From Candidatus Poseidoniaceae archaeon (GTDB lineage: Archaea; Thermoplasmatota; Poseidoniia; Poseidoniales; Poseidoniaceae): 48,051 bases of DNA. The notes below the pieces were generated by a model, which saw only the letters and a program-made list of their open reading frames with translations, searched no databases and was not told the origin of the DNA. Of this stretch, positions 1,817-42,827 are shown in pieces. The DNA lies in contig CALKDX010000049.1 in NCBI GenBank assembly GCA_938084455.1, forward strand, positions 1-48,051, written 5' to 3'. The translations under genes and the position numbers were made by a program. Position 1 is the stretch's first letter; every line of letters starts with the position of its first letter.

Positions 1817-1910
1817 GCTCGATGGTCGACTCTAACCATATTCAACTTTGTTCATCAACCGCCAAGCCGTTTCGCTTAAGGTTGAAGGCAGAAGACATCT
1901 TGGCTGTACC

Positions 1911-3368
1911 ATGGATGGAGCGTGGGGGTCGGTTGAAGCCGATTGGCGACTCTTGCTGCTCCTTGTGTTGTTGTGGTACATTCTTCTGCGTGCTTGGGAA
2001 CGAAATGGCACCCTTGACAAGTGGAACGCAAGCCGTGTGTTCGGATTTGTATTGATGGTGCGGGGGACCTATGGTCTGAAGGCACTGGAAACGATTTCCA
2101 AACCGAGGAAGTTCTGGAGAATCTACGGGGAAGTGGCCTTGTGGCTGTGCGTGGGATCGATGCTTCTTGTCGGGTTACTGATGGGTCTTGCCTTCGTTGG
2201 CGCCTTGTTATCGCCTCCAACAACAGCCCCGCCAACTGCGAGTGAACTTGTCGCTATACCCGGCATCAACCCAATGATTCCTCTTGGATGGGGGGCAATG
2301 GCCTTCATTGTAGCCCTCGTCATTCATGAATTCGGACATGGTTTGCTGGCCAGAGCTCATGGTATGCGCATTCGAGCCTTTGGATTGCTGCAACTCGGCC
2401 CTCTACCGCTTGGCGCCTTTGCTGAACCGCAGTACGAGGAACTGCAACGAGCCCCTCGCAGGGAACGCATGCGCATGTTCGCTGCAGGCCCCGCAACCAA
2501 CCTCTTTGCGGCATTTGTTTGCCTCCTCATGCTTGGAGGATTAGCAGGGCAAGCCATCTCGACAACACCTCACCCACACGCACGTTCAATCATCGTTGAT
2601 GGTGAAGCTGAAAAAGCTGGCATGGAGCCTTGGGATATCATCACCGCCATCAACGGAACCGAGGTCATTGGAATGGATGGTTTCAGAGATCAAATGCAAC
2701 TCTATCGGGCGAACGACACCGTCACAATGGATGTCATCCACGCGAATGGCGAAGAAGAACAGTTGACGATTGTTTTTGCTGACAAGTACCTCTATCACGA
2801 GAATATGGGTTGGACCGAAGCCAATTTAGAAGCATTTGACATTCAGCCTGGAGACCCGTTTTTGGGTGTTGAAGGCTTGAGTGAGGGGACGTGGGGCATT
2901 GATCGCTTAGCCGGCCCGTTCTCACCACGCTTTGAGGGAGGCACATTGGTCAAATCCATTTATGCTCCAATCCACATATTGACGCTGATGGTTGTCCCGT
3001 TCCAACTCCAAGGTGTTTCGATGTACCCAATGGAAGAAGCCATGCTGACAACCGCAGATGAAGGGCTTGGCGCAGTGATTGGCACCAGCGGACTGTTGTT
3101 CTTCATCAACTTCTTTTTCTGGCTCATGTGGGTCAACATCCTTCTCGGATTCACTAATTTGATACCCATGGTACCTTTCGATGGCGGTCATCTGTTCAAG
3201 GACACCCTCCATGGCACGCTTTCTGCGGTCAAAAGGCTTGGAAAGAAAACAAAATTATGGGATATACACCCCATGTGGATTGATCATATTTCGAGTAAGG
3301 CCTCAAGTTTTTCCTCTCTTGCGTTGCTCATGATGCTGATCTTCATCATTGCTGTACAGTATCTTTGA
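1911..3368 (+). CDS. M50-family (site-2 type) intramembrane metalloprotease with PDZ domain
   Basis: HEFGHG zinc motif, PDZ-like block EKAGMEPWDIITAINGTEV, second motif NLIPMVPFDGGH, several TM segments; start chosen at MDGAWGS within the 1848-3368 ORF. Confidence 0.85.
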   Translation: MDGAWGSVEADWRLLLLLVLLWYILLRAWERNGTLDKWNASRVFGFVLMVRGTYGLKALETISKPRKFWRIYGEVALWLCVGSMLLVGLLMGLAFVGALLSPPTTAPPTASELVAIPGINPMIPLGWGAMAFIVALVIHEFGHGLLARAHGMRIRAFGLLQLGPLPLGAFAEPQYEELQRAPRRERMRMFAAGPATNLFAAFVCLLMLGGLAGQAISTTPHPHARSIIVDGEAEKAGMEPWDIITAINGTEVIGMDGFRDQMQLYRANDTVTMDVIHANGEEEQLTIVFADKYLYHENMGWTEANLEAFDIQPGDPFLGVEGLSEGTWGIDRLAGPFSPRFEGGTLVKSIYAPIHILTLMVVPFQLQGVSMYPMEEAMLTTADEGLGAVIGTSGLLFFINFFFWLMWVNILLGFTNLIPMVPFDGGHLFKDTLHGTLSAVKRLGKKTKLWDIHPMWIDHISSKASSFSSLALLMMLIFIIAVQYL

Positions 3369-6334: not shown

Positions 6335-6563
6335 GCTTCGCCCCGTTCGGTAAGAATCCGAACAACTTCTTGAGGCTTCCTTTCACAAGAGCAATCGTTG
6401 AAGCTCAAACCAAGACCCTAAAAATTGAATATAATCTTCGATAGACTTGCAAGAACAGTCATCAGTGACGCATCCATTTTGTCGATGTGACGGTTTGGGG
6501 AGAAGTTGAAATGCTTTGGCTTCGGTGGGCCGAAGGCCCATTGAGGGACACACGGTGATTTTC

Positions 6564-9500
6564 ATGCGAAAAGCAATCTTTCTTACCCTTATTTTCCTCA
6601 CCTCGCTGATGGCTCCTATCGCCGCTGGAGCGACCACTGAGACACAGTTTCAAAACGGTACCACTTCCTATACGCACACCTTTTCCGGCAGTGGAAATGG
6701 AAGCGCCGGGGACTTATCGATTCCATTCGGCGCCGAAGTGACGTCCGCTGAGTTCAAGCTTCGAGGGGACGCCAGTCGAACCACATACACCAACTTCACC
6801 ACAAACGCCCATTTCGGTGGATCTGGTGATGGAACATGGTCAGGTTCACCTCCTTCGCCCTTCACATCTGGCAGCCGTCAAAACATCAACGTTGATTCCC
6901 GAGAGATGGAACTGAAAGGGAACCCATCCGATAGCGGAATCGACCTCGGCCGCACCCAGCAAATCCAATCGAAGGGGTCGGCAGTGCAAAACACAACAGG
7001 CCAGTTCATAGCAAACGGCGACCAAGGTTACACAGGACTCACCAAGGTCTTCCCACAGTTGAGCGTCAGCACCACTGCTAGTTGGAATTACATCGGTGTT
7101 GTCGTTATGATTGATGATGAGTACCACGTCATGCGGTACACATCCTCAGGATTGTATCAATTGCCAACCATCCTCCGAATCAACGCTACAACTGGAGCAT
7201 ACATCGGTACAGCGAACATCAACACCAACGGATGCAGTTCGAGCCAATACTACAAGATGAGCGACGCCGTCGTTGATGGGAACAATGTCTACACGGCTCA
7301 CGGATCGTACTACTACCTCACCAAGTGGTCCGTTTCAAGTTCCATGCAGTGGAAATGTGAGCAATCATGGTCGTTCAGCCCGAACTATGTCACCGGAGTT
7401 GACATCGATGAATCAACAGGAAAGATGTGGGTTTCAACCTACAGTTATCAGGCTCAGGCACATTACCTGAACGAGGTCAACAAAAACACGCCGAATTCAG
7501 TCAATGGGACCTGGACGCTTGGATCAACATCGACCATTCCGACTCAATACGGTGCTGGACTTGTCGTCAACTATCCGACCATTATCTACAACGAATACGA
7601 CCAATCCTACAAGAGCGGCACCTACACCTACGACAGCTACCATCACTACTTCACCTTCAACGGCAACTTCATCGAACACATGGGCGTCAAACCAATCACA
7701 GAAGGTGGACACTACGGCCTTGTTGAAGCGGATGGAGGAAAGCTAAGTTTTTCCTGCTCACATTACAGCACAGCGTACTGTCCAAGTTCATATCGGCACA
7801 AGATCTTCCATCATGGTGACGGGGCTCTGTTCGATGCACGCACACCAACCTCGACTTCGAACCTTATCGTTGGAACGGCCATTTCGATCTCAAAACCAAT
7901 CTCAGAATATGAAGTCAAGAGCGTTCTGGGCTACCTGCCATCAGGAACCAGCATCGTTGTGGAGTTGTCAAATGATGGCGGTACAACCTGGCGCACTGTC
8001 AATGCAGGGCAAACGGTCATCTTCTCAAGCCCAAGCAACAGCCTGCTTTGGCGAGCGACATTGAATGGAACGGCTTCTGCGACCCCAATCTTAGATGGTA
8101 TTGGTGTTGAATACACCACTTCGTACGTGAATTCTGCCTACATGTACGTCAACCAATACGTCGGTAGCGGAACACAAACTACGGTTGCTGCAACCTTAAC
8201 ATGGAACTCCACCACACCTTCAGGAACCTCAATTCGTGTCAATTATGGCTATTCATCATCGAACACCTGCACTTCGGGCAGCACCGGTGTGCAGACTTGG
8301 ACCACAGCCCAATCTGGTCAAACCAAGTCATTGAGTCCAACAGGTTATTACATGTGCTTGAGGGTAGAATTGTCATCCTCAAATTCACAGAGCACACCTT
8401 CGATTTCCAACATCAGCGTCGCACAGCACGCAGACGCGCCAGAAGAGGCTGGAATCGAAATCGGTGGCCTGCTCGATCCCGACAAACCATACGATTGGAC
8501 AACACCAACCTGTTGGAAAATGCCAGCCAGCAATGGTGCGTTGATGGGACCGATAACCGTCACTCATCTTACTGTATCCGGAGGCGTCAATAACCTCCTC
8601 AAGTGCCTCAACGACCGTATTCCTGACACAGGTGCGGGGATTGCAAACCTCTCCATTGGATTGGTCTCATCATCATCGGGTGTTCTCGAATTGCAATCGT
8701 TCTCAGTCACCTACACCGTGAACACCATCAACCTCGACATCCAAATCCCTGTAGGCGAAATTCTTCATGAGCGACTGCAGCCTTACGAAGTTGTGACCCG
8801 ACACATCATCGGTGAAGATGCGACAAGCATGTCTGAAGCAACCTTAACTTTGCAAACCAAATCCATTGCCAAAAACCCAACGATGACTTGGCAGAACGGT
8901 GATGTATTCCCCGATCCGAATGATCCAGAAGACTACATCGAGATGGACGCAAGTTCATGGTCCGCTGAAAACAATGGTATTCTTGAGATTCACTGGATTT
9001 TCCACGTGACTTCAGAATTCCCAGATCAAAGCGGAGTTCGATTCAAGACTGGATGCTTGGACAACAGCGGCTCTGCTGGTTATTCACCGCTTGATTTGTT
9101 GAGCGATGATACAATGGAAGTCAACCGCAGCTTTGGCCTTGGTTGGCTCAAGGTCCGTGACAACGATGGCAGATTGACCATGGATGATGTCCCAGACAAC
9201 TCTTGGGTTGCTGCAGGGGAAACTCTCTACTTCCAAGGAGCCATGTGGTTCCATAACACCGAAGATGCTCCAAAGGACAGTGCCTTTGATGTGCGAATTT
9301 CTCGCAACGGTTGGGTGGAGAGCACCGCTAGGGACACAACCAACAACAATGGCACCTTCTTCATCGGTATTGACCTGCCAGCCATCGACGTACCTGACGG
9401 CCTCACCTATGAGGTTCAGACCTACAATGAGCGCGATCCAACTCACGTTATGGCCTCGAACGCTGACTGGCAACGAACCTACAAGGTCGATGCAACAGCT

Positions 9501-11663
9501 CCCGAGCGAATGGCCATCGCTCCGCTTGATGACGGCTATGAAGCAGCAAGTTCTCAGCAAGAAATCAAGATCATGGTCAACGATGATGTTGGTCACCCGA
9601 TGACGCTCGATCTCATGTATTGGGTCGAAGCAGACCATGACAGCAACAGAAATGGTGAAGCCGATCTGGAAGAATACGCAACAAAGAGCGTGCACAACAC
9701 AACTGAAGCGAAGAATAAGTGGTTTATCACAACCATCGATCACACTCGAAACCCCAATATGGGTCGTGTTTCATACTACTGGCAAGGTGGCGATGAGGCA
9801 GGAAACCCTCTGTTTTACTCAATGGTTGGCGACGATGATGAAATCTTCACTTTTGAATCCGAACATGGATTTGAGCATGACGACGCAACTTTCCGAACCC
9901 GGAAGGATTCCTCCGCGGTGTTCACCGGACTCGAATGGGTTGGGCATGACGACAATGCCCCAATTTTTGCAGGCATGGAGCAAGTCATTACGCTTGGATT
10001 CATTGATGCCAACACAGCCATCGATTTCGAGCATATATCACTCGTCTTTGACTTTGAGGGGCCAAACCCATTGAGAGACGCTCAACGCATCTCGTACTCT
10101 GGGATGAACGATACTTTCTGGTCGGAAAGCGAGTTCATTACCCTCATGTCCACCAGCACGATGCACCAAACAACAAATGATTCTGGCCTACCGTGGATTC
10201 AATTGACGTTCCACTTTGAAATCGGCTGGGATTGGCCTGATGAAGAGATGGGTGATGTGGCGTTGATCTACAAAGAGCGTGGTTCTGAGTATGAAGACCG
10301 TATCCTGCTTTTGGAACACACCTTCCGAGTTGAGAACGACCTCATGCTCGCTCCAAGTGATTACCTCGTTGAAGACATCAGTGAGCCACGCACCGGCCAA
10401 GTCGCAGATGGCAGCCGGGTACGCAAGGATGACCGTCTAGCCTTCACAGGAACCGTTGTCTACGAAGGCAGCAGCGTTCCTGCCCCAAGGGACGTCGGTA
10501 TTCTTGTCGAAGTGTTTGATGGAGAAAAGATGTGGAGCGATGGCTCATTGACCGAACAAGGTCATTACTCAGTCGAAGTACCACTCTCCTCGGCAACCAC
10601 GCTTCAATCCTCTCCAACCCGAACATGTTTGATTTCCATCACCAACATTCCTGGCCGTGGTGAAGACATGACCGGGACCTTGGTATCGACCACATTGCAA
10701 GTGATTGTGGATGATGCGGCACCACGTGTCGTCAAGCGCACCAGCCCGCTCAATGTCATCGATATTTCCGCAAATAACGACCTCACTTTTGTTCCAGTCG
10801 AATTCCATGGCACTGAAGATGCCGATTTGACTGGGTCGCGGCAAATGGTCCACTGGGTCATGCGGGATGCAACACGCACCGTCACCATAGGTGCTGGTTC
10901 AACGCTCCTCGGCATGCAACAAGACGGGCAGAATGTGATCTGGACTGGAGCCGTTGATTTGACAGACAATGGACGAATAACACCGCAAGCTGGTGATTTC
11001 GTTGGCTTCTATGTCACAGGCTATGACGCCGCAGGGAACCAGTTCCCTGTTGTATCCAATTCTGAAGCCAGCCCGGTTCCAGAACTTGCTGTTGACGATA
11101 CGGACTTTGAACGACAATGGATTCGACTCGGCGCCGTTGGACCTGAATTGCGTGTTCGGTCGATCGATTTGTCTGACGACCACGTCGCACCGGGTTCAGC
11201 AGTCAAGGTGAACGCACAAATCGTCAATACTGGAGGCGATACAAACCGTTCGTTCAAGGTCAGTTTCTATGCAGGCGATGCAGAGAAACCATTTGACGAA
11301 ATCACACTGTCTGGTATCGATTCCAATGAAATCATTGATGTGGACACGACATGGAATGCAGAAGATGTCGATCGAATTCGAGTTGTTGTCGACCGTGACA
11401 ACCTCATCGTCGAGGTGAACGATGATGACAACAGCGCAGAACATTCAGTCGATCTTGCTTATCCAAAGTACCTTGGCTGGTTCGATTCACCTCGTGAAAA
11501 CCCACTTGCTTGGATTTTCATCGTCACATCAATTCTCGTGCTCATTGGCGTTGCAACCATCGCTTCACGCACAACCATCGATCACAGTGGCGGCCTCTTT
11601 GATGAGGAAGAAGACTGGGACGAAGATGAAGATGATGACGAAGATGAATACGATGACGATTGA
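6564..11663 (+). CDS. Giant secreted, membrane-anchored surface protein with CARDB domain and acidic cytoplasmic tail
   Basis: Signal peptide MRKAIFLTLIFLTSLMAPIAAGA; Ser/Thr/Asn-rich ectodomain; CARDB-like HVAPGSAVKVNAQIVNTGGDTNRSFKVSFYAGD...; TM NPLAWIFIVTSILVLIGVATIAS; tail DEEEDWDEDEDDDEDEYDDD. Confidence 0.8.
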   Translation: MRKAIFLTLIFLTSLMAPIAAGATTETQFQNGTTSYTHTFSGSGNGSAGDLSIPFGAEVTSAEFKLRGDASRTTYTNFTTNAHFGGSGDGTWSGSPPSPFTSGSRQNINVDSREMELKGNPSDSGIDLGRTQQIQSKGSAVQNTTGQFIANGDQGYTGLTKVFPQLSVSTTASWNYIGVVVMIDDEYHVMRYTSSGLYQLPTILRINATTGAYIGTANINTNGCSSSQYYKMSDAVVDGNNVYTAHGSYYYLTKWSVSSSMQWKCEQSWSFSPNYVTGVDIDESTGKMWVSTYSYQAQAHYLNEVNKNTPNSVNGTWTLGSTSTIPTQYGAGLVVNYPTIIYNEYDQSYKSGTYTYDSYHHYFTFNGNFIEHMGVKPITEGGHYGLVEADGGKLSFSCSHYSTAYCPSSYRHKIFHHGDGALFDARTPTSTSNLIVGTAISISKPISEYEVKSVLGYLPSGTSIVVELSNDGGTTWRTVNAGQTVIFSSPSNSLLWRATLNGTASATPILDGIGVEYTTSYVNSAYMYVNQYVGSGTQTTVAATLTWNSTTPSGTSIRVNYGYSSSNTCTSGSTGVQTWTTAQSGQTKSLSPTGYYMCLRVELSSSNSQSTPSISNISVAQHADAPEEAGIEIGGLLDPDKPYDWTTPTCWKMPASNGALMGPITVTHLTVSGGVNNLLKCLNDRIPDTGAGIANLSIGLVSSSSGVLELQSFSVTYTVNTINLDIQIPVGEILHERLQPYEVVTRHIIGEDATSMSEATLTLQTKSIAKNPTMTWQNGDVFPDPNDPEDYIEMDASSWSAENNGILEIHWIFHVTSEFPDQSGVRFKTGCLDNSGSAGYSPLDLLSDDTMEVNRSFGLGWLKVRDNDGRLTMDDVPDNSWVAAGETLYFQGAMWFHNTEDAPKDSAFDVRISRNGWVESTARDTTNNNGTFFIGIDLPAIDVPDGLTYEVQTYNERDPTHVMASNADWQRTYKVDATAPERMAIAPLDDGYEAASSQQEIKIMVNDDVGHPMTLDLMYWVEADHDSNRNGEADLEEYATKSVHNTTEAKNKWFITTIDHTRNPNMGRVSYYWQGGDEAGNPLFYSMVGDDDEIFTFESEHGFEHDDATFRTRKDSSAVFTGLEWVGHDDNAPIFAGMEQVITLGFIDANTAIDFEHISLVFDFEGPNPLRDAQRISYSGMNDTFWSESEFITLMSTSTMHQTTNDSGLPWIQLTFHFEIGWDWPDEEMGDVALIYKERGSEYEDRILLLEHTFRVENDLMLAPSDYLVEDISEPRTGQVADGSRVRKDDRLAFTGTVVYEGSSVPAPRDVGILVEVFDGEKMWSDGSLTEQGHYSVEVPLSSATTLQSSPTRTCLISITNIPGRGEDMTGTLVSTTLQVIVDDAAPRVVKRTSPLNVIDISANNDLTFVPVEFHGTEDADLTGSRQMVHWVMRDATRTVTIGAGSTLLGMQQDGQNVIWTGAVDLTDNGRITPQAGDFVGFYVTGYDAAGNQFPVVSNSEASPVPELAVDDTDFERQWIRLGAVGPELRVRSIDLSDDHVAPGSAVKVNAQIVNTGGDTNRSFKVSFYAGDAEKPFDEITLSGIDSNEIIDVDTTWNAEDVDRIRVVVDRDNLIVEVNDDDNSAEHSVDLAYPKYLGWFDSPRENPLAWIFIVTSILVLIGVATIASRTTIDHSGGLFDEEEDWDEDEDDDEDEYDDD

Positions 11664-14700: not shown

Positions 14701-14798
14701 TGTTGAGACGGACTCAACGCAACAATACGGAAGGTCTGCTTGAAGCGATTCACAATGCAGAGATTGAATACGCTCGAACCCGTAGATTTTGGGCTTAA
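11763..14798 (+). CDS. lhr: Lhr-like DEAD/DEAH-box helicase with C-terminal zinc-ribbon-like Cys pairs
   Basis: Q-motif region PTPVQTEALP, APTGSGKT, DEVHDL, GLSATVGNPEEVAQWL, LVFVNSRNDAETIA, GIDVGKIQRIVQVKSPRSVDRMLQRVGRADHR; CLRCKN...CTKCSGTM. Confidence 0.85.
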   Translation: MSGVFSILDDRLAASLNERGWKPTPVQTEALPSLCAGEDRIIIAPTGSGKTLSAVLPVLHRCLTEEWDPLAILYITPLRALNRDVDRRLEEISSAVGLKVGLRHGDTTQSERTRQTRKPPHLLVTTPETFQLMFTGKNLRKLLKSVRAVIVDEVHDLAASERGWQLSLGLARLEALSGHRVQRIGLSATVGNPEEVAQWLSPGRGKAIIAMGERSTDLTVECAQPLAEDEVGGIEMGVTPRVHASFRRLIEVLRTEPPCLVFVNSRNDAETIANRLQSMAPDVQIGVHHGSLAADTRQDMEDRLRAGELAGLVCTSSLELGIDVGKIQRIVQVKSPRSVDRMLQRVGRADHRLGGVGRGHLLAWDADEIAEGAVVARKAMLGEIEPVQWRQRPKAVVANQLVLMAHSHNAVPIDTATEIIGNASQFEGWVRHDTEAILKVLADSWIIRHTPDPKEVPWYRWPAKVYALAQSEAAAKKLKLPEERPRYNVPDEEISNDLKSLQVPVPALFAKGWFSTAGRTRQWVSNHLSMIPDKQSYRVRDAVTRRSLGNVDEAFVLSLNDSGEDDDGHRRQFVMAGRTWMIIDADPEQSELLVTPVSDQANAPQWVGELPPVPKAIARDIGRLRGLVAMDIGAYETPPFSESEVVDVNGIFADRFSTLKEHPIDDEALGLLAETITNHLEVTGVLATDRKITIEEREDAIVINSCHGSRINEAIGHFLMAMASTKTGKWGRLVNEPTRISLQTGEIHADHIVGWLTETPPDALQGLLSVTLPNSRQVRWRFAQVAKTFGILRHGVDPRKINLQALLRKYRGTVVMEEVLDKLFHERMDVLGARDVLHAIQSGLIEIEISPTGPMGVSNRSSRDLLLPNWDNAAVREKLRTRLVNERAVLCCLRCKNVRRFRVARFKEIEGIKKCTKCSGTMLACAREGMQAMLEGWVASEDEKDQGRMMKNADLVQSRGYEAVLCLMGRGVGEATAQRLLRRTQRNNTEGLLEAIHNAEIEYARTRRFWA

Positions 14799-15745
14799 TT
14801 TGGCAATTCTAAGGCGTTGATGGCAACCGAAGCGGCAACAACATCACCATCTTCCCACCAATCAACAGCGATGAAGGTTGGTCGCTTGCCATGTTGAATC
14901 CAGCATTCTTTCGCTCGTTCAATCAAGAAATCGATGTTGTTTGCCTCATCCCCTCTGCTCGGATCCGAAAGACCGAGTGGACCTCGAAGCCAGTTGTTCA
15001 TGTGATAGACCTCTTGTTCCGGATCGCCTCGAAGTGGGTCGCAGTTCATGTCTTCTGTGTTCTCTTCCGCAAAATTAGTGGTCCAACTGTGGGTCAAGAA
15101 ATCGTGCACCCAAGGATGTGCAGGATCTGCTGATTGTTCCCAAAACACAACCAGTGGGGTTCGGTCCTCAAGCATGGTTGCAAGGGTTGGCCATGGTTCA
15201 TTCATGGTGTGATAAAACACCAAATCATACAGCCCTGACTGTTCCATCACTGCTTTTAGATGGTCGGCTTGAACATAATTTTCCACCAACAAGGTCACCA
15301 CATCATTTGGTGCGTCTTGCATGAGAGCGTTGAGTTGTGAAAGCCAGGTCACTGCGTTGACGGTTCCATACGTACAGGGGCTGAACCCTCGATCATCGTC
15401 ACCGTGGCAAAGGCGAACCGTTTCGACTCGTTCGTCACCAAGAACCTCGTAATGCGTGTCAATCATGAACGCACGGATTCCAGCGTTCCATTGCGCCAAT
15501 AGGCCAGTCTGGTGGTTTGCCGCTGGATAGTAAATCCCATCTTCATGTGTGGAAAACGCATTGTGCGTTTCGGGGAATGTGACATCATCATAGGTGCGGT
15601 CGCACAAAAGAACCATCCCATTGCATTCGGTTCCATCCGGGATTGGTACCTCTTCATTCACAGCGGTTCGGGGTACCGTCGGGGCTACGCACCCCGAAAG
15701 TAGCATGAGCACAATGAGGCCGCCTGCAACAACCCCTCCTCTCAT
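14795..15745 (-). CDS. Lipoprotein with PI-PLC-like phosphodiesterase (TIM barrel) domain
   Basis: Lipobox LMLLSGCVAP; catalytic-type motifs PETHNAFST, RAFMIDTHYEV, LCHGDD typical of PLC-like phosphodiesterases. Confidence 0.7.
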   Translation of the reverse strand: MRGGVVAGGLIVLMLLSGCVAPTVPRTAVNEEVPIPDGTECNGMVLLCDRTYDDVTFPETHNAFSTHEDGIYYPAANHQTGLLAQWNAGIRAFMIDTHYEVLGDERVETVRLCHGDDDRGFSPCTYGTVNAVTWLSQLNALMQDAPNDVVTLLVENYVQADHLKAVMEQSGLYDLVFYHTMNEPWPTLATMLEDRTPLVVFWEQSADPAHPWVHDFLTHSWTTNFAEENTEDMNCDPLRGDPEQEVYHMNNWLRGPLGLSDPSRGDEANNIDFLIERAKECWIQHGKRPTFIAVDWWEDGDVVAASVAINALELPN

Positions 15746-16275: not shown

Positions 16276-17634
16276 TCATCCCTTCGCCAGCAGCGACAGG
16301 TCGTCATCTCCGTCTAAGCCGAGTGCTTCGAGGAGATTCCCCTGTAAATACAACGAACCAAGGCTGACCACCAAGCCCACCGACGATGGAGGATGTTGGA
16401 GGAGGGTCTGAACGGCATCATTGGGTAATTTGATTGTTTGTTGAACCGAGCACTTCCATGGATATTGGGCTAATACTTGACTGTCTACGCCGGGATACCG
16501 GCCGCCCTGAGGCTCACTCAACACCACCATGTGTGGAGGATATCGCTGGCACAAATCGAGCAAGGGGGCACAAAATACGTCCAAATCATCCTGTGGCGAT
16601 GTACCGAACAGAAGACTCCAGCCGCCTTCCTCACCCTCACATGCTGCCTGAATGGTCTGTTCTAGCTCAGGCAGAACGCGTTGCAACCCTGAGGGGTTGT
16701 GAGCGGCATCAAGGAGGTATGGGTGGTGGCCGGTTGCTTGAACCGAAAGGTGCTGCATGCGCGCTGGCCACCGCACCGTTTTGTTCGCCAACAGAAGGTT
16801 CTCCTTTGGCAAATCAACGGCTGTGAACAAGGCCTCGGCCAGGATCATCGCTTCTTGACGAACAGAAGTTTCACCCGGAATCTCAACCCATTGAGTTTTT
16901 GCGGGCACTCTTGATTCGCCCAGTGAGGGTTGGCCAGCCATATTGGCTTCTTCGAGCATTGCATCTTTCACCGCAGCATCGCTTGGTTTACGAATCAACA
17001 ACCGTCCACCTGGACGGGCTATTGCTGCTTTTTCTTTGGCGATAAGAGGAAGAGAGGATCCAAGCACATCCTTGTGTTCGGCGCTTAGGGATGTCACGAG
17101 GCAAACGGTTGCCGGACCTGAACGTGTGGCGTCTTTCCTTCCGCCAAGACCAGTTTCTAGAATCAGCACCTCTACACCTGCATCGCTGGCACACTGCATC
17201 GCAACAAGGTAGGTTACTTCGAAGAAGGTGAGAGGTATTTCGGGTTCTTGTTTCGAAGCGCTACGAACCTTGCTCACGGCTCGATTAAACGAGGGAGCGT
17301 CAATTGGAATCCCATTGAAGCGTATGCGCTCTTCTACTCGCACCAAATGAGGGGATGAAAAGAACAGATTTGAAACTCCAGAAAGCGACAAGGACCCCGC
17401 CATCAGGGCGCAAACTGTGCCTTTGCCGTTGCTTCCTGCGACGTGGATGATGTGCTCGGGCTGATGAGGCAGCCTAAGTCGCTCCAACGCAGCCTTTGTG
17501 TGGTTCAAGCCGAAGGTCATGCCTCTATTTTTCGTGCTGTTTAACCACGTTCGAACTTCGTCCAAAAAAAGCCCCCTCCGGTTGTTGGATAACCCCTTGG
17601 TGAATAGCCTCTTGCCTTTCGACATCAACACCAT
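16276..17634 (-). CDS. folC: Folylpolyglutamate synthase / dihydrofolate synthase (Mur ligase fold)
   Basis: HVAGSNGKGTVCALMAGSL, SSPHLVRVEERIRFNG, LETGLGGRKDATR, YLLDAAHNPSGL; start uncertain (in-frame M at 17634 or 17625). Confidence 0.85.
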   Translation of the reverse strand: MVLMSKGKRLFTKGLSNNRRGLFLDEVRTWLNSTKNRGMTFGLNHTKAALERLRLPHQPEHIIHVAGSNGKGTVCALMAGSLSLSGVSNLFFSSPHLVRVEERIRFNGIPIDAPSFNRAVSKVRSASKQEPEIPLTFFEVTYLVAMQCASDAGVEVLILETGLGGRKDATRSGPATVCLVTSLSAEHKDVLGSSLPLIAKEKAAIARPGGRLLIRKPSDAAVKDAMLEEANMAGQPSLGESRVPAKTQWVEIPGETSVRQEAMILAEALFTAVDLPKENLLLANKTVRWPARMQHLSVQATGHHPYLLDAAHNPSGLQRVLPELEQTIQAACEGEEGGWSLLFGTSPQDDLDVFCAPLLDLCQRYPPHMVVLSEPQGGRYPGVDSQVLAQYPWKCSVQQTIKLPNDAVQTLLQHPPSSVGLVVSLGSLYLQGNLLEALGLDGDDDLSLLAKG

Positions 17635-17701
17635 TGTATCGCCCCCGTAGGGGGCGTATGGAATCACCATGCTGATATGGGAACGCACGCTCCGATAGGG
17701 C

Positions 17702-19915
17702 ATGAGCAACGACAACACGGCCTCGCCCGTTGGAAAAAAGGCCTCGGGCAAAGAGTCCAAGGCGTTCAAGGCCGTCGAAGCTGAACTTCGTGCTGAAGAC
17801 AGTCTGCTTCACATGATGAGAGAACAAATGACCTCAATGTTGGGCATGATGGGCATGTTCATCCTCACCATCGTGATTGGACTTTACATTCGGCCGTGGT
17901 ATGATGTTGCAGGATTGCATGCTTTCGGGGAATCCGGAGCAACTCAAGTTCGGTACATTTTGCTTGAATTGGTGATGATTTTTATCTTTACAGCGTTCAT
18001 TCTTGCCCTTGCAAAGTACAAGAAAGACTGGATTATCAAATACGGAATCATGGGCGTGTTGTGCCTTGCTTTGATGTATTCCACTGTGCCATTGGCACAC
18101 ATGGTGATGATCGATTTGGATTCGGAACCCTATGAAATAGAAGCAACCAGGGAATTCGAAAGTGCCTACATAGGCCACAGCGGGTATGATGGTCATTTCA
18201 TGAGTGAAGTGACTGGGGGCGAGGGCACCTGGGGTGAAAACGTCAGTTTCTACAAGGGCCACTCAATGGTGGACGGGGAGCCAACATGGACCAACCAACA
18301 TGTTCGCTACCCGCACAGCGATGAGTTCACGCTCCATGTGAGCGTGGATGAAGATGTGTTCACTTTTGCCAATGGGGCTTGGGTGTGGTACGTGAACGCT
18401 GAAACCGGTGAAACAATTGATTCCTACACCTGCATGCAAACGACCACCGTTGATGGTGAGGAAGAGTTCACGGGTTACCTCGCAGCGCTGGGAACTGGTT
18501 GCATGGTTGGATTCCATACGAACGATGCAATGTACATTATTGATGAAGGAAACTTTCTCCACCGTTTCAACACATTCGAAGAAAACCCTGGACTCATGGT
18601 GACGCAGGCCAAGTGGCGACTTCCATTTGGACTTGATGCCCACCTAGGCACCCTTCATACCGAAGTGATTGCGGAAGACAAGGTCTTGATTGCAACCCCG
18701 ACAATGGTGGCTGTCATCTTACTGGAAGAAACTGCCCCAGCCTTTGACCCAAACCTGCCTGATATCAATAACATGGCAACGGTTCTGTTCCAGCACAACG
18801 CTTCAAGCAAGTTCACCTCAGCCGACTTCGGACCTTCTCCTTGGTCCACAACTCCGTATGATCTTGCCTCAAACCAAGAAGGATTGATCTTGTTGGGTGA
18901 AGAAAACGGTGACGTGATTGGGTTTGAATGGAATGCAACACAGGACACGGAATTCACCCCACAAACCAACATGAACCTCGAAGGTTTTGGCGAAACCATT
19001 CAATCAGTACGCCTGACGGACCGAGATTTTTCAGGGTACAGTGACATGCTGATCACAACCGAGAGCCAAGCCCACTGGCTTTGGACAACATCCCTTCTCA
19101 ACAAGATCAGTTTGGACATTGACGAAGGGTTCGAAACTGGTTGGTTTGCGAACACAACCGACAATCAAACACACTTCCACGCGCTCTACAGCACGGAATC
19201 AACCACAATCAACTCTGGAATCATCACCGAGGACATGGACGTCGTCAGCGGTCTTCAACTCTATGATGTTCCCCTTATTCTCGGTGTCATCGTAGCGTTG
19301 GTGCTCATGGTGCTGCTCTATGTGCACAGTGAATGGTATGTTGTCAACACGGTTGGCGTGCTGGTTGGTTCGGGTGTTGTGGTGATGCTCGGAGTGGCCT
19401 TTGTCCCAACCCTCATCATCGTATTCATGATTGCAGCCGCTATTTACGATGCGTGGGCCGTCTACAAATCCAAACACATGCTGGACTTGGCAGACACCAT
19501 GATCAATTTACGATTGCCAATCCTTCTGGTTGCACCGCAAGAAAAAGGCTACTCTTTCGTTGAAGAAACTTCATCGATGAAAGATCGTGATGCGCCTGCT
19601 CCTGCACCTTCCAAGGGTGCGCCCAAGAAACAGAAAGGAAAGGATGCCATGTTCATGGGACTCGGTGACGTGATTTTCCCAGGTATGCTGGTTCTTTCAG
19701 CTGCCCAATGGTTGGACTCAAGTGGAGCGTTTGCCGTAGCCATCTCAACACTGGTAGGAGGTTTAGTTGGTTACTTCGCATTGATGACATATGTGGCACG
19801 AGGACGGGCTCAAGCAGGATTGCCTTTGCTGAACGGCGGTTCCATCTTAGGCTACGTGATCGGAGGCTACATCTTCATTGGATCAGCCATCTTTGACTTT
19901 GGAATTTCAATTTGA
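17702..19915 (+). CDS. Presenilin/SPP-family (A22-like) intramembrane aspartyl protease with a large extracytoplasmic insertion between TM3 and TM4
   Basis: Nine hydrophobic segments; YD motif (AAAIYDAWAVY) and GxGD motif (MGLGDVIFPGML) in consecutive TMs with a hydrophilic loop between; last TM with LPLLNGGSILGY in the PAL position; ~380-aa hydrophilic insertion. Confidence 0.75.
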   Translation: MSNDNTASPVGKKASGKESKAFKAVEAELRAEDSLLHMMREQMTSMLGMMGMFILTIVIGLYIRPWYDVAGLHAFGESGATQVRYILLELVMIFIFTAFILALAKYKKDWIIKYGIMGVLCLALMYSTVPLAHMVMIDLDSEPYEIEATREFESAYIGHSGYDGHFMSEVTGGEGTWGENVSFYKGHSMVDGEPTWTNQHVRYPHSDEFTLHVSVDEDVFTFANGAWVWYVNAETGETIDSYTCMQTTTVDGEEEFTGYLAALGTGCMVGFHTNDAMYIIDEGNFLHRFNTFEENPGLMVTQAKWRLPFGLDAHLGTLHTEVIAEDKVLIATPTMVAVILLEETAPAFDPNLPDINNMATVLFQHNASSKFTSADFGPSPWSTTPYDLASNQEGLILLGEENGDVIGFEWNATQDTEFTPQTNMNLEGFGETIQSVRLTDRDFSGYSDMLITTESQAHWLWTTSLLNKISLDIDEGFETGWFANTTDNQTHFHALYSTESTTINSGIITEDMDVVSGLQLYDVPLILGVIVALVLMVLLYVHSEWYVVNTVGVLVGSGVVVMLGVAFVPTLIIVFMIAAAIYDAWAVYKSKHMLDLADTMINLRLPILLVAPQEKGYSFVEETSSMKDRDAPAPAPSKGAPKKQKGKDAMFMGLGDVIFPGMLVLSAAQWLDSSGAFAVAISTLVGGLVGYFALMTYVARGRAQAGLPLLNGGSILGYVIGGYIFIGSAIFDFGISI

Positions 19916-19926
19916 GGTGATCCAAC

Positions 19927-21219
19927 ATGCTCGACATCAATCTGTTTAGAACAACGCCCGAAGTCATTCGTAACGATCACGACAAGCGAGGTATTCCACA
20001 CGACAACATCGACCGTGTGATTGAATTGGACCAGACATGGATTAACCTCCAACACGAGACAAATCAACTGCGTGCGACAAAAAACGCTGCTGCACGTGGC
20101 ATTGGAGCCGCAAAGAAATCTGGCGACGAAGCCGCAGCGCAACGCATTCTAGCTGAGGTTGCAGACCTTGGGGCTCAAATTTCTGAACTCGAACGCAAGA
20201 CTGACGAAGCCGTTGAAGAACGCGACCGACTGCGGATGCGGATCCCAAACATCCTTCATCATGATGTGCCAAAAGGCGGTGATGAATCTGGTAATACAGT
20301 GCACAGCGTTCATGGCGTCAAACCAGAATTCACGTTTGATGTTCGTACGCACAACGAATTGATTGAGATGAATAAATGGGTCGACTTGAAGCGTGCAGCA
20401 AAGATCGTTGGGAGCCGCTTCTTCTTCCTCAAGGGTGATTTAGCCAGATTAGAATTCGCCCTACAGCAGTATGCAGTGGACTTCATTCGCCAAAGAGGCT
20501 ACACCTTTGTCCAACCGCCAGTTATGATGAATCGAGAAGCCTACGAAGGCGTGACCGACCTTTCCGATTTTGAAACCGTCATGTATGGGATTGAACCGGA
20601 CAAGTACTACATGATTGCAACTGCAGAACATCCGCTTACTGCCATGTTCATGGGTGAAACAATTCCAGAAGCCGATTTACCATTACGAATGGTTGGTGTA
20701 TCTCCGTGCTTTCGACGCGAAGTTGGTTCCCACGGACAATCAGACCTCGGTATTTGGCGGGTTCATCAGTTCACTAAGATTGAACAAATCATCATTGCAA
20801 GCCCTGAGCAGTCGTGGGAATTGCAGGAAGAATTGTTGCAAAATTGCATTGATTTGTGGGACGCACTTGGAATGCACTACGAAGTGGTGAACATCTGCAC
20901 AGGTGACATGGGCACCGTTGCAGCAAGAAAGTACGATCTTGAGGCTTGGATCCCCGGTGCAGACCAATACAAAGAGATTGTATCCTGCTCGAACTGCACT
21001 GATTATCAAGCAAACCGACTTCAAATCAGGTATGGTCAACCGGGTCATTCCGGCCAGCCCATCGCACATACGCTCAATTCAACCGCTGTAGCTACCTCTC
21101 GAGCCCTCGTAGCAATCATAGAACAGAACCAGTTGGAAGACGGACGGGTGCGCATCCCTGAAGTGCTTAAACCATTGATGGGTGGACAGGACGTCCTCGA
21201 GCCTTGCCAATGGGGCTGA
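19927..21219 (+). CDS. serS: Seryl-tRNA synthetase
   Basis: MLDINLFRTTPEVIRND..., class II motifs (SPCFRREVGSHGQSDLGIWRVHQF, LNSTAVATSRALVAIIE). Confidence 0.95.
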   Translation: MLDINLFRTTPEVIRNDHDKRGIPHDNIDRVIELDQTWINLQHETNQLRATKNAAARGIGAAKKSGDEAAAQRILAEVADLGAQISELERKTDEAVEERDRLRMRIPNILHHDVPKGGDESGNTVHSVHGVKPEFTFDVRTHNELIEMNKWVDLKRAAKIVGSRFFFLKGDLARLEFALQQYAVDFIRQRGYTFVQPPVMMNREAYEGVTDLSDFETVMYGIEPDKYYMIATAEHPLTAMFMGETIPEADLPLRMVGVSPCFRREVGSHGQSDLGIWRVHQFTKIEQIIIASPEQSWELQEELLQNCIDLWDALGMHYEVVNICTGDMGTVAARKYDLEAWIPGADQYKEIVSCSNCTDYQANRLQIRYGQPGHSGQPIAHTLNSTAVATSRALVAIIEQNQLEDGRVRIPEVLKPLMGGQDVLEPCQWG

Positions 21220-40362: not shown

Positions 40363-41379
40363 ATGGCCATTCAACCAGACGATTTTGACATCCCCGTTGT
40401 TGACTACGCTTTCAACGAAGTCTCAACCCCTCGTTCCCTCATCGATCAAATGGGCCAGGCAGGTGGTTTTACCGCTACCAAATTGTCGATGGCAAGAGAT
40501 ATTTTACTTGACATGAAAAAGCAAATTGACGCCGTGAACGGTGATTCTTCGAAAGTGTGCAACTGGCTCTCATTCCCTGCATGCCTTTGTGCAACAGGTA
40601 CCCGAGGGTTCTTTGTCGAAGCACTCAAACAACAGATGTTTAACGTGGTTTCAACAACATGTGGAATGTTGGACCATGACATTGCCCGGGCTCACAAGCA
40701 TTATTATCACGGTGCATTTGAATTGGACGATATTGAACTCGGCGAACACTCCTTGATGCGACTTGGTAATGTGATTGTACCTAATTCGTCTTATGGGGAA
40801 ATTATCGAAGAAGTGCTGACTCCGGTGCTCGAAGAAATGTATCAAGATCGATTAACGGAAACTGGAAAAAATGGGGCAGACGCTTGGCTCGGCTTTGGCT
40901 CGATACATTTGGTATGGGAACTAGGAAAGCGGATTGGAACCCCTGATTCATTGATCTATTGGGCATACAAGCATCAAATTCCAGTGGTGATTCCAGGCAT
41001 CACTGATGGCTCAATCGGAGCGCAATTGTTCATGCTGCGTCAGAAACACCGGGACTTTCACATCGACACACTTGCTGATGAGCAGGTGATGAGTGACATG
41101 ACCTGGGATGTCGAAACCTCAAACGCGTTGATGGTCGGTGGCGGTATTTCCAAACACCACGTCATTTGGTGGAACCAATACCGCGGGGGTCTTGACGCTG
41201 CTGTATACATCACAACGGCTCCTGAACACGATGGAAGCCTCTCTGGTGCTCGACTTCGCGAAGCAATCTCATGGGGTAAAATGCGTCCTGAGGCCCCGAA
41301 TGTTTGCGTGGAGGGAGACGCAAGTGTCCTTTTACCGCTGATTGGCGCGGATGTGCTTCAGCGAGGTGATGCATCGTGA
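40363..41379 (+). CDS. dys: Deoxyhypusine synthase family protein
   Basis: GGGISKHHVIWWNQYRGGLDAAVYITTAPEHDGSLSGARLREAISWGKM (catalytic Lys region), ELDDIELGEHSLMRLGNVIVPNSSY. Confidence 0.85.
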   Translation: MAIQPDDFDIPVVDYAFNEVSTPRSLIDQMGQAGGFTATKLSMARDILLDMKKQIDAVNGDSSKVCNWLSFPACLCATGTRGFFVEALKQQMFNVVSTTCGMLDHDIARAHKHYYHGAFELDDIELGEHSLMRLGNVIVPNSSYGEIIEEVLTPVLEEMYQDRLTETGKNGADAWLGFGSIHLVWELGKRIGTPDSLIYWAYKHQIPVVIPGITDGSIGAQLFMLRQKHRDFHIDTLADEQVMSDMTWDVETSNALMVGGGISKHHVIWWNQYRGGLDAAVYITTAPEHDGSLSGARLREAISWGKMRPEAPNVCVEGDASVLLPLIGADVLQRGDAS

Positions 41380-42827
41380 ATCACAGACAAAAAATGGCAC
41401 TTTTGATGACCGCACTCATGGCCTTGATGCCGCTTGCTGGGTGCTTCGGTGCAAATGAATCCAACGAGCAAGAGGAATCGGAGGGTGGCGTGTTTGACTT
41501 TGCTGAACAGCTTGGGGAAACGACATGGTACCATTACCCCGGTGGAGCAAACGCCATGAACAACACTTCCGCACTGGTTGGTAACAACATCCCCTACTTC
41601 AGCCAAGGGACCTATTATGCCACTGGCTACTCGACGTTTGAACCAACCATGGGCATCACTTCAACAGACAACATTTACTTCACAAGTTATGGAAACGGTC
41701 CGCAAGGATCCACTGCCATTGTTCAATGCACGAACATGATTGAAATGAAAAATCTCAGTGATTTTAGTTGCGAAAATGTCTACGGGCCGGTGCTTCCAGT
41801 CGCTAATTCCAATGACCCCTATGTCTATGTTGACCCTTGGACCGACCGAATCATGAAATTTGACATGCATGCATTGTTGGGGATGACAGTCGAATGGAGC
41901 GATGATGAAGGCGATTCATGGTTTGGCCCATCGGTGGCCACATCGTACTCTGTTCAAGACCACCAAACCATTGCCTCTTCCCCCTACGGCGGTATTCTTC
42001 ACGAAACCCTGTGGGTGTTTTGCATCAATGGAAACTACCCCTCCCCGCTTTGTTCTCAAAGCCAAGACGGTGGACTGACATGGGGGCCTGAACTTCCTGG
42101 AGCTCCGGTTGACTGCCAAAGCGGTGGCCTATCTGCCCACATCATCGGTGCTGAAAACGGGAACTTCTACCGTGGACAGATAGGATGCGACGGTACGGGT
42201 TATTCAATGTACAAAACCGAAGATGGAGCGCTCACGTGGACAGAACACCGACTGCCTACCGAAGAATCTGGAACAGCCGATACATGGAACGCTGAAGAAG
42301 CACAGGTGGACACCGACAGCGAAAGCAACGTGTACGCTATGTGGATGGGCAACGACAACATGCCCTACTTTTCCTACTCTGTTGACGATGCAAACACATG
42401 GTCAGACGCCGTCATGGTTGGACCAACTCACCTCGAGGGCACAGGATTCCCTGTCGTTATTGCTGGTGACCCCGGGCGTGTTGCGTTTGGCTATATTGGA
42501 ACAGAAGGCGATGGCCTTTGGCACGGATACATCTCAGTCATGACCGATGCGTTCAGCGAAAATCCACTGATCACCACGGTCCAACTCAACGCACCCGATG
42601 ATCCACTTGACGATGCAAGCCCAACCTGTGGGTACGAACGCTGCGGTGGGTTTGGCGACTTTATTGACATGCAAATCGATGCCTTTGGGCGCCCATGGCT
42701 ATCGCTTTCCCACAACCCTAACGGTGACACTGGAATTATGGGGACGTTCATGACTGGTCCAACACTGGTTGGAAACGTAACCGCGCTGAATGTCCTCCCT
42801 GAAGGTGGAACTCAAACATTGAATTGA
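41376..42827 (+). CDS. Lipoprotein with BNR/sialidase-like propeller signatures
   Basis: Lipobox MPLAGCFG; Asp-box-like WSDDEGDSWFGP, SQDGGLTWGPEL, KTEDGALTWTEH. Confidence 0.7.
   Translation: MNHRQKMALLMTALMALMPLAGCFGANESNEQEESEGGVFDFAEQLGETTWYHYPGGANAMNNTSALVGNNIPYFSQGTYYATGYSTFEPTMGITSTDNIYFTSYGNGPQGSTAIVQCTNMIEMKNLSDFSCENVYGPVLPVANSNDPYVYVDPWTDRIMKFDMHALLGMTVEWSDDEGDSWFGPSVATSYSVQDHQTIASSPYGGILHETLWVFCINGNYPSPLCSQSQDGGLTWGPELPGAPVDCQSGGLSAHIIGAENGNFYRGQIGCDGTGYSMYKTEDGALTWTEHRLPTEESGTADTWNAEEAQVDTDSESNVYAMWMGNDNMPYFSYSVDDANTWSDAVMVGPTHLEGTGFPVVIAGDPGRVAFGYIGTEGDGLWHGYISVMTDAFSENPLITTVQLNAPDDPLDDASPTCGYERCGGFGDFIDMQIDAFGRPWLSLSHNPNGDTGIMGTFMTGPTLVGNVTALNVLPEGGTQTLN

Follow-up and report, generated by a model that had tools for sequence, protein, structure and literature searches.

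The window, by which we mean the whole stretch of 48,051 nucleotides analysed here, comes from a Marine Group II archaeon (Candidatus Poseidoniales, Thermoplasmatota), and it encodes a presenilin-family intramembrane aspartyl protease (PSH) of 737 residues with an inserted ectodomain (17702-19915, + strand). We are highly confident in describing it as a PSH that has all of the catalytic motifs, and in which a predicted β-propeller of about 380 residues, facing outwards, replaces the short loop between TM3 and TM4. The core family is known; the propeller inserted in the TM3-TM4 loop is new as far as our literature search shows. This search found no paper that pairs Poseidoniales with presenilin, none that connects a propeller with archaeal intramembrane aspartyl proteases (where Raut, Glass and Lieberman 2021, doi 10.1002/prot.26009, may predate us), and no report of an archaeal presenilin whose TM3-TM4 loop holds a domain of large size.

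The open reading frame is intact from ATG to stop. The translated protein scores 227 bits with the NCBIfam equivalog NF041679 ('presenilin family intramembrane aspartyl protease PSH'), whose cut-off is 125, and it matches Pfam PF06550 with E 3e-54 and 184.8 bits against a cut-off of 23.9. It also matches the crystallised archaeal PSH, PDB 4hyc (E 1e-30, phmmer), while the match to PF04258 (SPP/SPPL) falls below the cut-off (E 0.0022). By sequence homology, the protein is thus an archaeal presenilin homologue of the presenilin/SPP (A22) family, with all the catalytic motifs present.

Both hydropathy and AlphaFold2 give nine transmembrane helices. TM1-TM3 (residues 46-136; 17837-18109, + strand) follow a cytosolic N-terminus, with AlphaFold2 helices at residues 46-69, 79-105 and 109-136, and correspond to positions 1-81 of the PF06550 profile. 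After the insert come TM4-TM6 (residues 522-589; 19265-19468, + strand; helices 522-541, 545-566 and 569-589) and TM7-TM9 (residues 654-725; 19661-19876, + strand; helices 654-670, 676-699 and 706-725), both groups being placed by the 4hyc alignment as well. Between TM6 and TM7 is a cytosolic loop (19469-19660, + strand), which has a Lys/Pro-rich segment and predicted strands at residues 608-612 and 649-653.

The YD motif (Y582-D583; 19445-19450, + strand), aligned to that of 4hyc, contributes the catalytic Asp583 in TM6, and the GLGD motif (G653-L654-G655-D656; 19658-19669, + strand) the catalytic Asp656 in TM7. The place of PAL, before TM9, is taken by PLL (P708-L709-L710; 19823-19831, + strand), as located by hydropathy and the 4hyc alignment. 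All three motifs are unchanged across 42 aligned relatives. The solved archaeal PSH likewise lacks a literal PAL and has PPL instead (PMC2947513), so that the motif at this position is P-x-L in these archaea. By homology to 4hyc, D583 and D656 would be expected to face each other once the protein is folded. A sequence-only reading had already assigned the protein to family A22, counted nine hydrophobic segments, and picked out Asp583, Asp656 and a motif in place of PAL, and these assignments all hold.

The match to the Pfam SPP profile falls into two parts, residues ~50-132 (profile positions 1-81) and 526-722 (profile positions 93-278), and therefore about 390 residues replace some 12 profile positions in the TM3-TM4 loop. 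The profile splits around residues ~139-520, just where the same reading had placed an insertion. The inserted segment is hydrophilic, with a mean Kyte-Doolittle value of -0.30, and it is strongly acidic, having 62 Asp and Glu to 11 Lys and Arg. The AlphaFold2 model shows no membrane helix within it.

The insertion had also been assigned to the outside of the cell, and two features support this. The presumed cytosolic loops hold 21 Lys and Arg, while there are none in the short loops on the outer side or at the C-terminus. Within the ectodomain, aligned as residues 139-520 over 42 Poseidoniales sequences, Cys267 (18500-18502, + strand) is invariant. Its proposed disulphide partner, Cys244 (18431-18433, + strand), is present in 37 of the 42 and is replaced by Cys223 in the other five, which are close relatives, so that the switch counts as a single event. 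The number of cysteines is even (2 or 6) in 39 of the 42 ectodomains. A partner that moves while the count stays even is the trace expected of a disulphide, and fits an extracytoplasmic domain. On the basis of this conserved cysteine pair and the charge bias of the loops, the propeller is predicted to lie outside the cell.

The ectodomain itself (residues 139-520; 18116-19261, + strand) gives a confident structure prediction. When modelled alone with AlphaFold2, the insert reaches a pLDDT of 90.5 and a pTM of 0.90, and consists of about 29 strands with almost no helix. A Foldseek search of the isolated insert against the PDB returned 837 matches at E<=1e-3, and the best 50 of these are all propeller or WD-repeat-type chains, including MEP50, RACK1-type WD40 proteins and BamB. 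The full-length model gives the same propeller picture, with a pTM of 0.61. The prediction is of a ring of four-stranded antiparallel blades, and on this evidence the predicted fold is a β-propeller, probably with seven blades judging from the number of strands. The Foldseek TM-scores reach moderate values (~0.33-0.51, relative to query length, with an rmsd of ~7-17 Å), which leaves the number of blades, and any close relationship, less certain than the class of fold. Sequence identity to the fold matches is ~7-12%. The sequence-only reading had suggested either a propeller or a β-sandwich: the model and the Foldseek matches bear out the first and rule out the second.

The window ectodomain has no match at E<=1 to any Pfam family, the named propeller families (WD40, PQQ, FG-GAP and BBS7) included. 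Weak matches do occur in its relatives, among them matches to the propeller families BBS7 (8e-4, 7 members), WDR36 (3e-4), PQQ_2 and FG-GAP_3. No solved structure is close to the ectodomain by sequence, the best matches (E 0.15) being to unrelated enzymes.

The distribution of the insert was analysed next to that of the protease. PF06550 matches were found in 261 of 293 sampled Poseidoniales genomes. In the Poseidoniaceae, among the matches listed, full-length PSHs are ~690-830 residues long and the insert is found family-wide; the shorter frames of this family match the C-terminal part of PF06550 alone, as expected of a cut gene. The sister family Thalassarchaeaceae is divided. Four of its genera (g15, g17, g19 and g22) have the long form, and seven (g12, g13, g14, g16, g18, g20 and g21) have a short form, as a rule of 350-430 residues, which has the same core but only 32-42 residues where the long forms hold about 400. 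Two short-form Thalassarchaeaceae genomes, G023 (C43 and C45) and G285, have two PF06550 matches each. Both of those in G023 look full-length, and this genome possibly has two PSH copies.

A search with a profile of the ectodomain matched 85 of 146 genomes and 14 of 21 genera, and the matches listed are all in the Poseidoniaceae and the four long-form Thalassarchaeaceae genera. The same profile finds divergent inserted PSHs at 1e-40, and at E<=0.01 it finds no stand-alone ectodomain gene, which might have acted as a partner in trans, in the genomes of the seven short-form genera.

The long and short genes share a locus. In the window, PSH is preceded by a divergently oriented FolC-type folylpolyglutamate synthase (16276-17769, - strand; TIGR01499, E 5e-60), whose called reading frame overlaps the PSH start and whose true start is probably further in, and is followed after a gap of 11 bp by seryl-tRNA synthetase (SerRS; 19927-21219, + strand). 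FolC and SerRS adjoin PSHs of both forms, within a common gene order of Lhr, deaminase, FolC, PSH and SerRS. This arrangement is seen for short PSHs at loci L190-L193, L203 and L204, and for long ones at most of L032-L111 plus L194 and L195; L032 (UBA258), at 97% identity and with the same gene order, supports the placement of the genome in Candidatus Poseidoniales. The simplest explanation of long and short genes at one locus is that the domain was gained or lost in place. As housekeeping genes, these neighbours offer no clue to function. At L043, L045-L047, L075 and L109 the FolC homologue lies upstream of PSH in the opposite orientation to that in the window, and the neighbourhood is therefore partly inverted. 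Two loci, L076 and L080, are on contigs titled Flavobacteriales and Rhodobiaceae; they encode a Poseidoniales PSH in Poseidoniales gene order, and these contigs are probably mis-binned.

Some other genes of the window may be mentioned here. A second intramembrane protease, a site-2 protease of the M50 type into which a PDZ domain is inserted, is encoded at 1848-3368 (+ strand; PF02163 6e-28, PDZ_2 3e-5). In the 1715-residue product of 6516-11663 (+ strand), probably a large cell-surface protein, the one domain matched is a CARDB domain (PF07705, 9e-13), which lies close to the C-terminus. A predicted lipoprotein of 316 residues (14795-15745, - strand), with no Pfam or NCBIfam match, adjoins the deaminase, a position conserved in part of the Poseidoniaceae; by eye, its THNAFS stretch resembles a PI-PLC-X-type phosphodiesterase. 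Immediately after deoxyhypusine synthase there is a reading frame of 483 residues with no Pfam match (41376-42827, + strand).

Insertions at this site are not confined to Poseidoniales. Most PSHs among the matches listed from 390 sampled Thermoplasmatota are about 300 residues long, and the expectation that archaeal PSHs are compact is correct for these, but it fails for the Poseidoniaceae, part of the Thalassarchaeaceae and two further lineages. These two are an order (f8/f18), in which 3 of 3 genomes have an inserted PSH, and a class (f11/f26/f28/f33), in which all 10 genomes with a match do, some of them on broken contigs. The inserted PSHs outside Poseidoniales, found in G298, G301, G309, G311, G319, G330, G340 and G358 (L123-L134), have insertions at the same place between TM3 and TM4, ~230-370 residues long, in which strand-like repeats are abundant by eye.

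These observations raise the question of whether a propeller was inserted once, long ago, in Thermoplasmatota and later lost in part of the Thalassarchaeaceae and possibly elsewhere, or was gained several times. The insertion site is identical in every inserted lineage, and the f33 ectodomain (L125) has propeller signatures of FG-GAP/BBS7 type (1e-5 to 1e-3), both of which speak for one old gain. On the core tree, strict monophyly of all inserted PSHs is rejected (AU p 1e-9); a single clade made up of the long forms and the short Poseidoniales forms is not (AU p 0.40), as one gain followed by loss would allow. Against it, the inserted lineages are separate in the best tree, and the Poseidoniales ectodomain profile does not match the ectodomains of L123-L134. 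Profile comparison of the Poseidoniales ectodomains with those of the other lineages is also not significant, giving E 0.001-0.05 over short stretches with a probability of 1-21%. A single old gain is thus possible, but we would not quite back it against several gains.

We now turn to what the propeller might do. Presenilin TM3 lies beside the substrate entrance. In γ-secretase, this entrance is marked by TM2 and TM6 of presenilin, which are flexible, and nicastrin recruits substrates and filters them sterically (PMC7248309). Since TM3 and TM4 adjoin the γ-secretase substrate path, a propeller between them is expected near the entrance, and this favours a role as a gate or docking platform. 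We propose that the propeller, which would be a rigid body of ~380 residues rooted in the TM3-TM4 hairpin, overhangs the way into the active site from outside the cell and forms a built-in gate or docking platform, choosing which membrane-protein stubs enter; cleavage would then follow by the ordinary two-aspartate mechanism. The compact PSH of Methanoculleus cleaves model substrates with neither an ectodomain nor cofactors (PMC2947513). Because that enzyme is active, and because seven Thalassarchaeaceae genera have no insert, the ectodomain is dispensable for catalysis; and because the compact enzyme needs no cofactors, the propeller should modulate catalysis rather than enable it.

By this analogy we prefer the gate or docking role to that of a sensor or a scaffold, while rating it at slightly under an even chance. 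The structural description and this role, taken together, we consider evenly balanced between right and wrong. A broader scenario, in which an in-cis, nicastrin-like propeller gate appeared early in the history of Thermoplasmatota and some Thalassarchaeaceae then lost it at the same locus, leaving gated and ungated pairs of common descent, is doubtful.

The propeller might instead be a sensor, which binds an extracellular ligand such as a peptide, a glycan or an unfolded envelope protein, and so switches the protease on or off. The enzyme would then be receptor and protease in a single chain, signalling through regulated intramembrane proteolysis. Binding of peptides or ligands is common among propellers, and the best fold matches include BamB, which is a propeller found in the bacterial envelope. 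The pattern of selection is also suggestive. In relatives with usable values, dN/dS is ~0.06-0.21 for the insert and ~0.01-0.04 for the membrane core (values with dS above ~1.5 are rough because of saturation). The insert is therefore maintained, yet freer to change than the core, and amino-acid-changing sites that evolve faster than those of the core while still constrained are what a recognition surface would be expected to show. However, no ligand-binding motif was recognised in the propeller, and the conserved neighbourhood contains no linked regulator or transcription factor. We regard a sensor as rather unlikely.

A purely structural role is less likely still. Here the propeller would stabilise the protease, form oligomers or tether it to the envelope, and would leave the choice of substrate unaffected. 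Propellers are common scaffolds, and it is consistent with such a role that seven related genera keep the protease without the domain. A passive tether alone would hardly account for the low dN/dS, although this is compatible with a scaffold, and the compact PSH is active without a propeller (PMC2947513). Finally, an artefact (a fusion by assembly error, a pseudogene or a junk insert) is scarcely credible, given that the insert occurs intact and in the same place in many assemblies from different species, is under purifying selection and has a high-confidence predicted fold; and since relatives in independent assemblies retain it, with a low dN/dS, the PSH gene is not a chance reading frame.

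The gate or docking role, and its competitors, are of wider interest because substrate choice by presenilin-type proteases has been argued mostly from γ-secretase, a complex of four subunits in which the outer domain, nicastrin, is a protein in its own right. An outer domain within one polypeptide, with orthologues at the same locus that do not have it, constitutes a natural with/without pair. Whether such a domain is a steric filter, a receptor or neither would become directly testable in a simple enzyme that could be expressed, cut and swapped. The known architecture of archaeal intramembrane aspartyl proteases also extends beyond the compact PSH.

Comparison with known systems places the window protein as follows. 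The predicted fold class of its ectodomain is that of the WD40, BamB and FG-GAP β-propellers, though the ectodomain matches no named family among them. The closest enzyme is MCMJR1, the Methanoculleus marisnigri PSH (4hyc), which shares the core fold family, the YD, GxGD and P-x-L motifs and the loop between the catalytic helices, but is only 301 residues long, with a short TM3-TM4 loop where the window PSH has its ~380-residue propeller. SPP and SPPL (A22B) belong to the same catalytic superfamily. The SPP membrane orientation is opposite to the presenilin-like one, and SPPL2 has an extra outer domain, a PA domain, which is N-terminal, whereas the extra domain of the window PSH is between TM3 and TM4. 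In RseP and other S2P proteases, inserted periplasmic PDZ domains act as a substrate size filter; the likeness here is one of working only, since these are metalloproteases of unrelated fold that use PDZ domains instead of a propeller. Human γ-secretase (presenilin 1 with nicastrin), the protease linked to Alzheimer's disease, shares the catalytic core family and the presenilin-like orientation, and by analogy it too has a large folded domain on its outer side, next to the path that substrates take. Nicastrin is, however, a separate protein with another fold, while the propeller is in cis and is not by its fold a relative of nicastrin.
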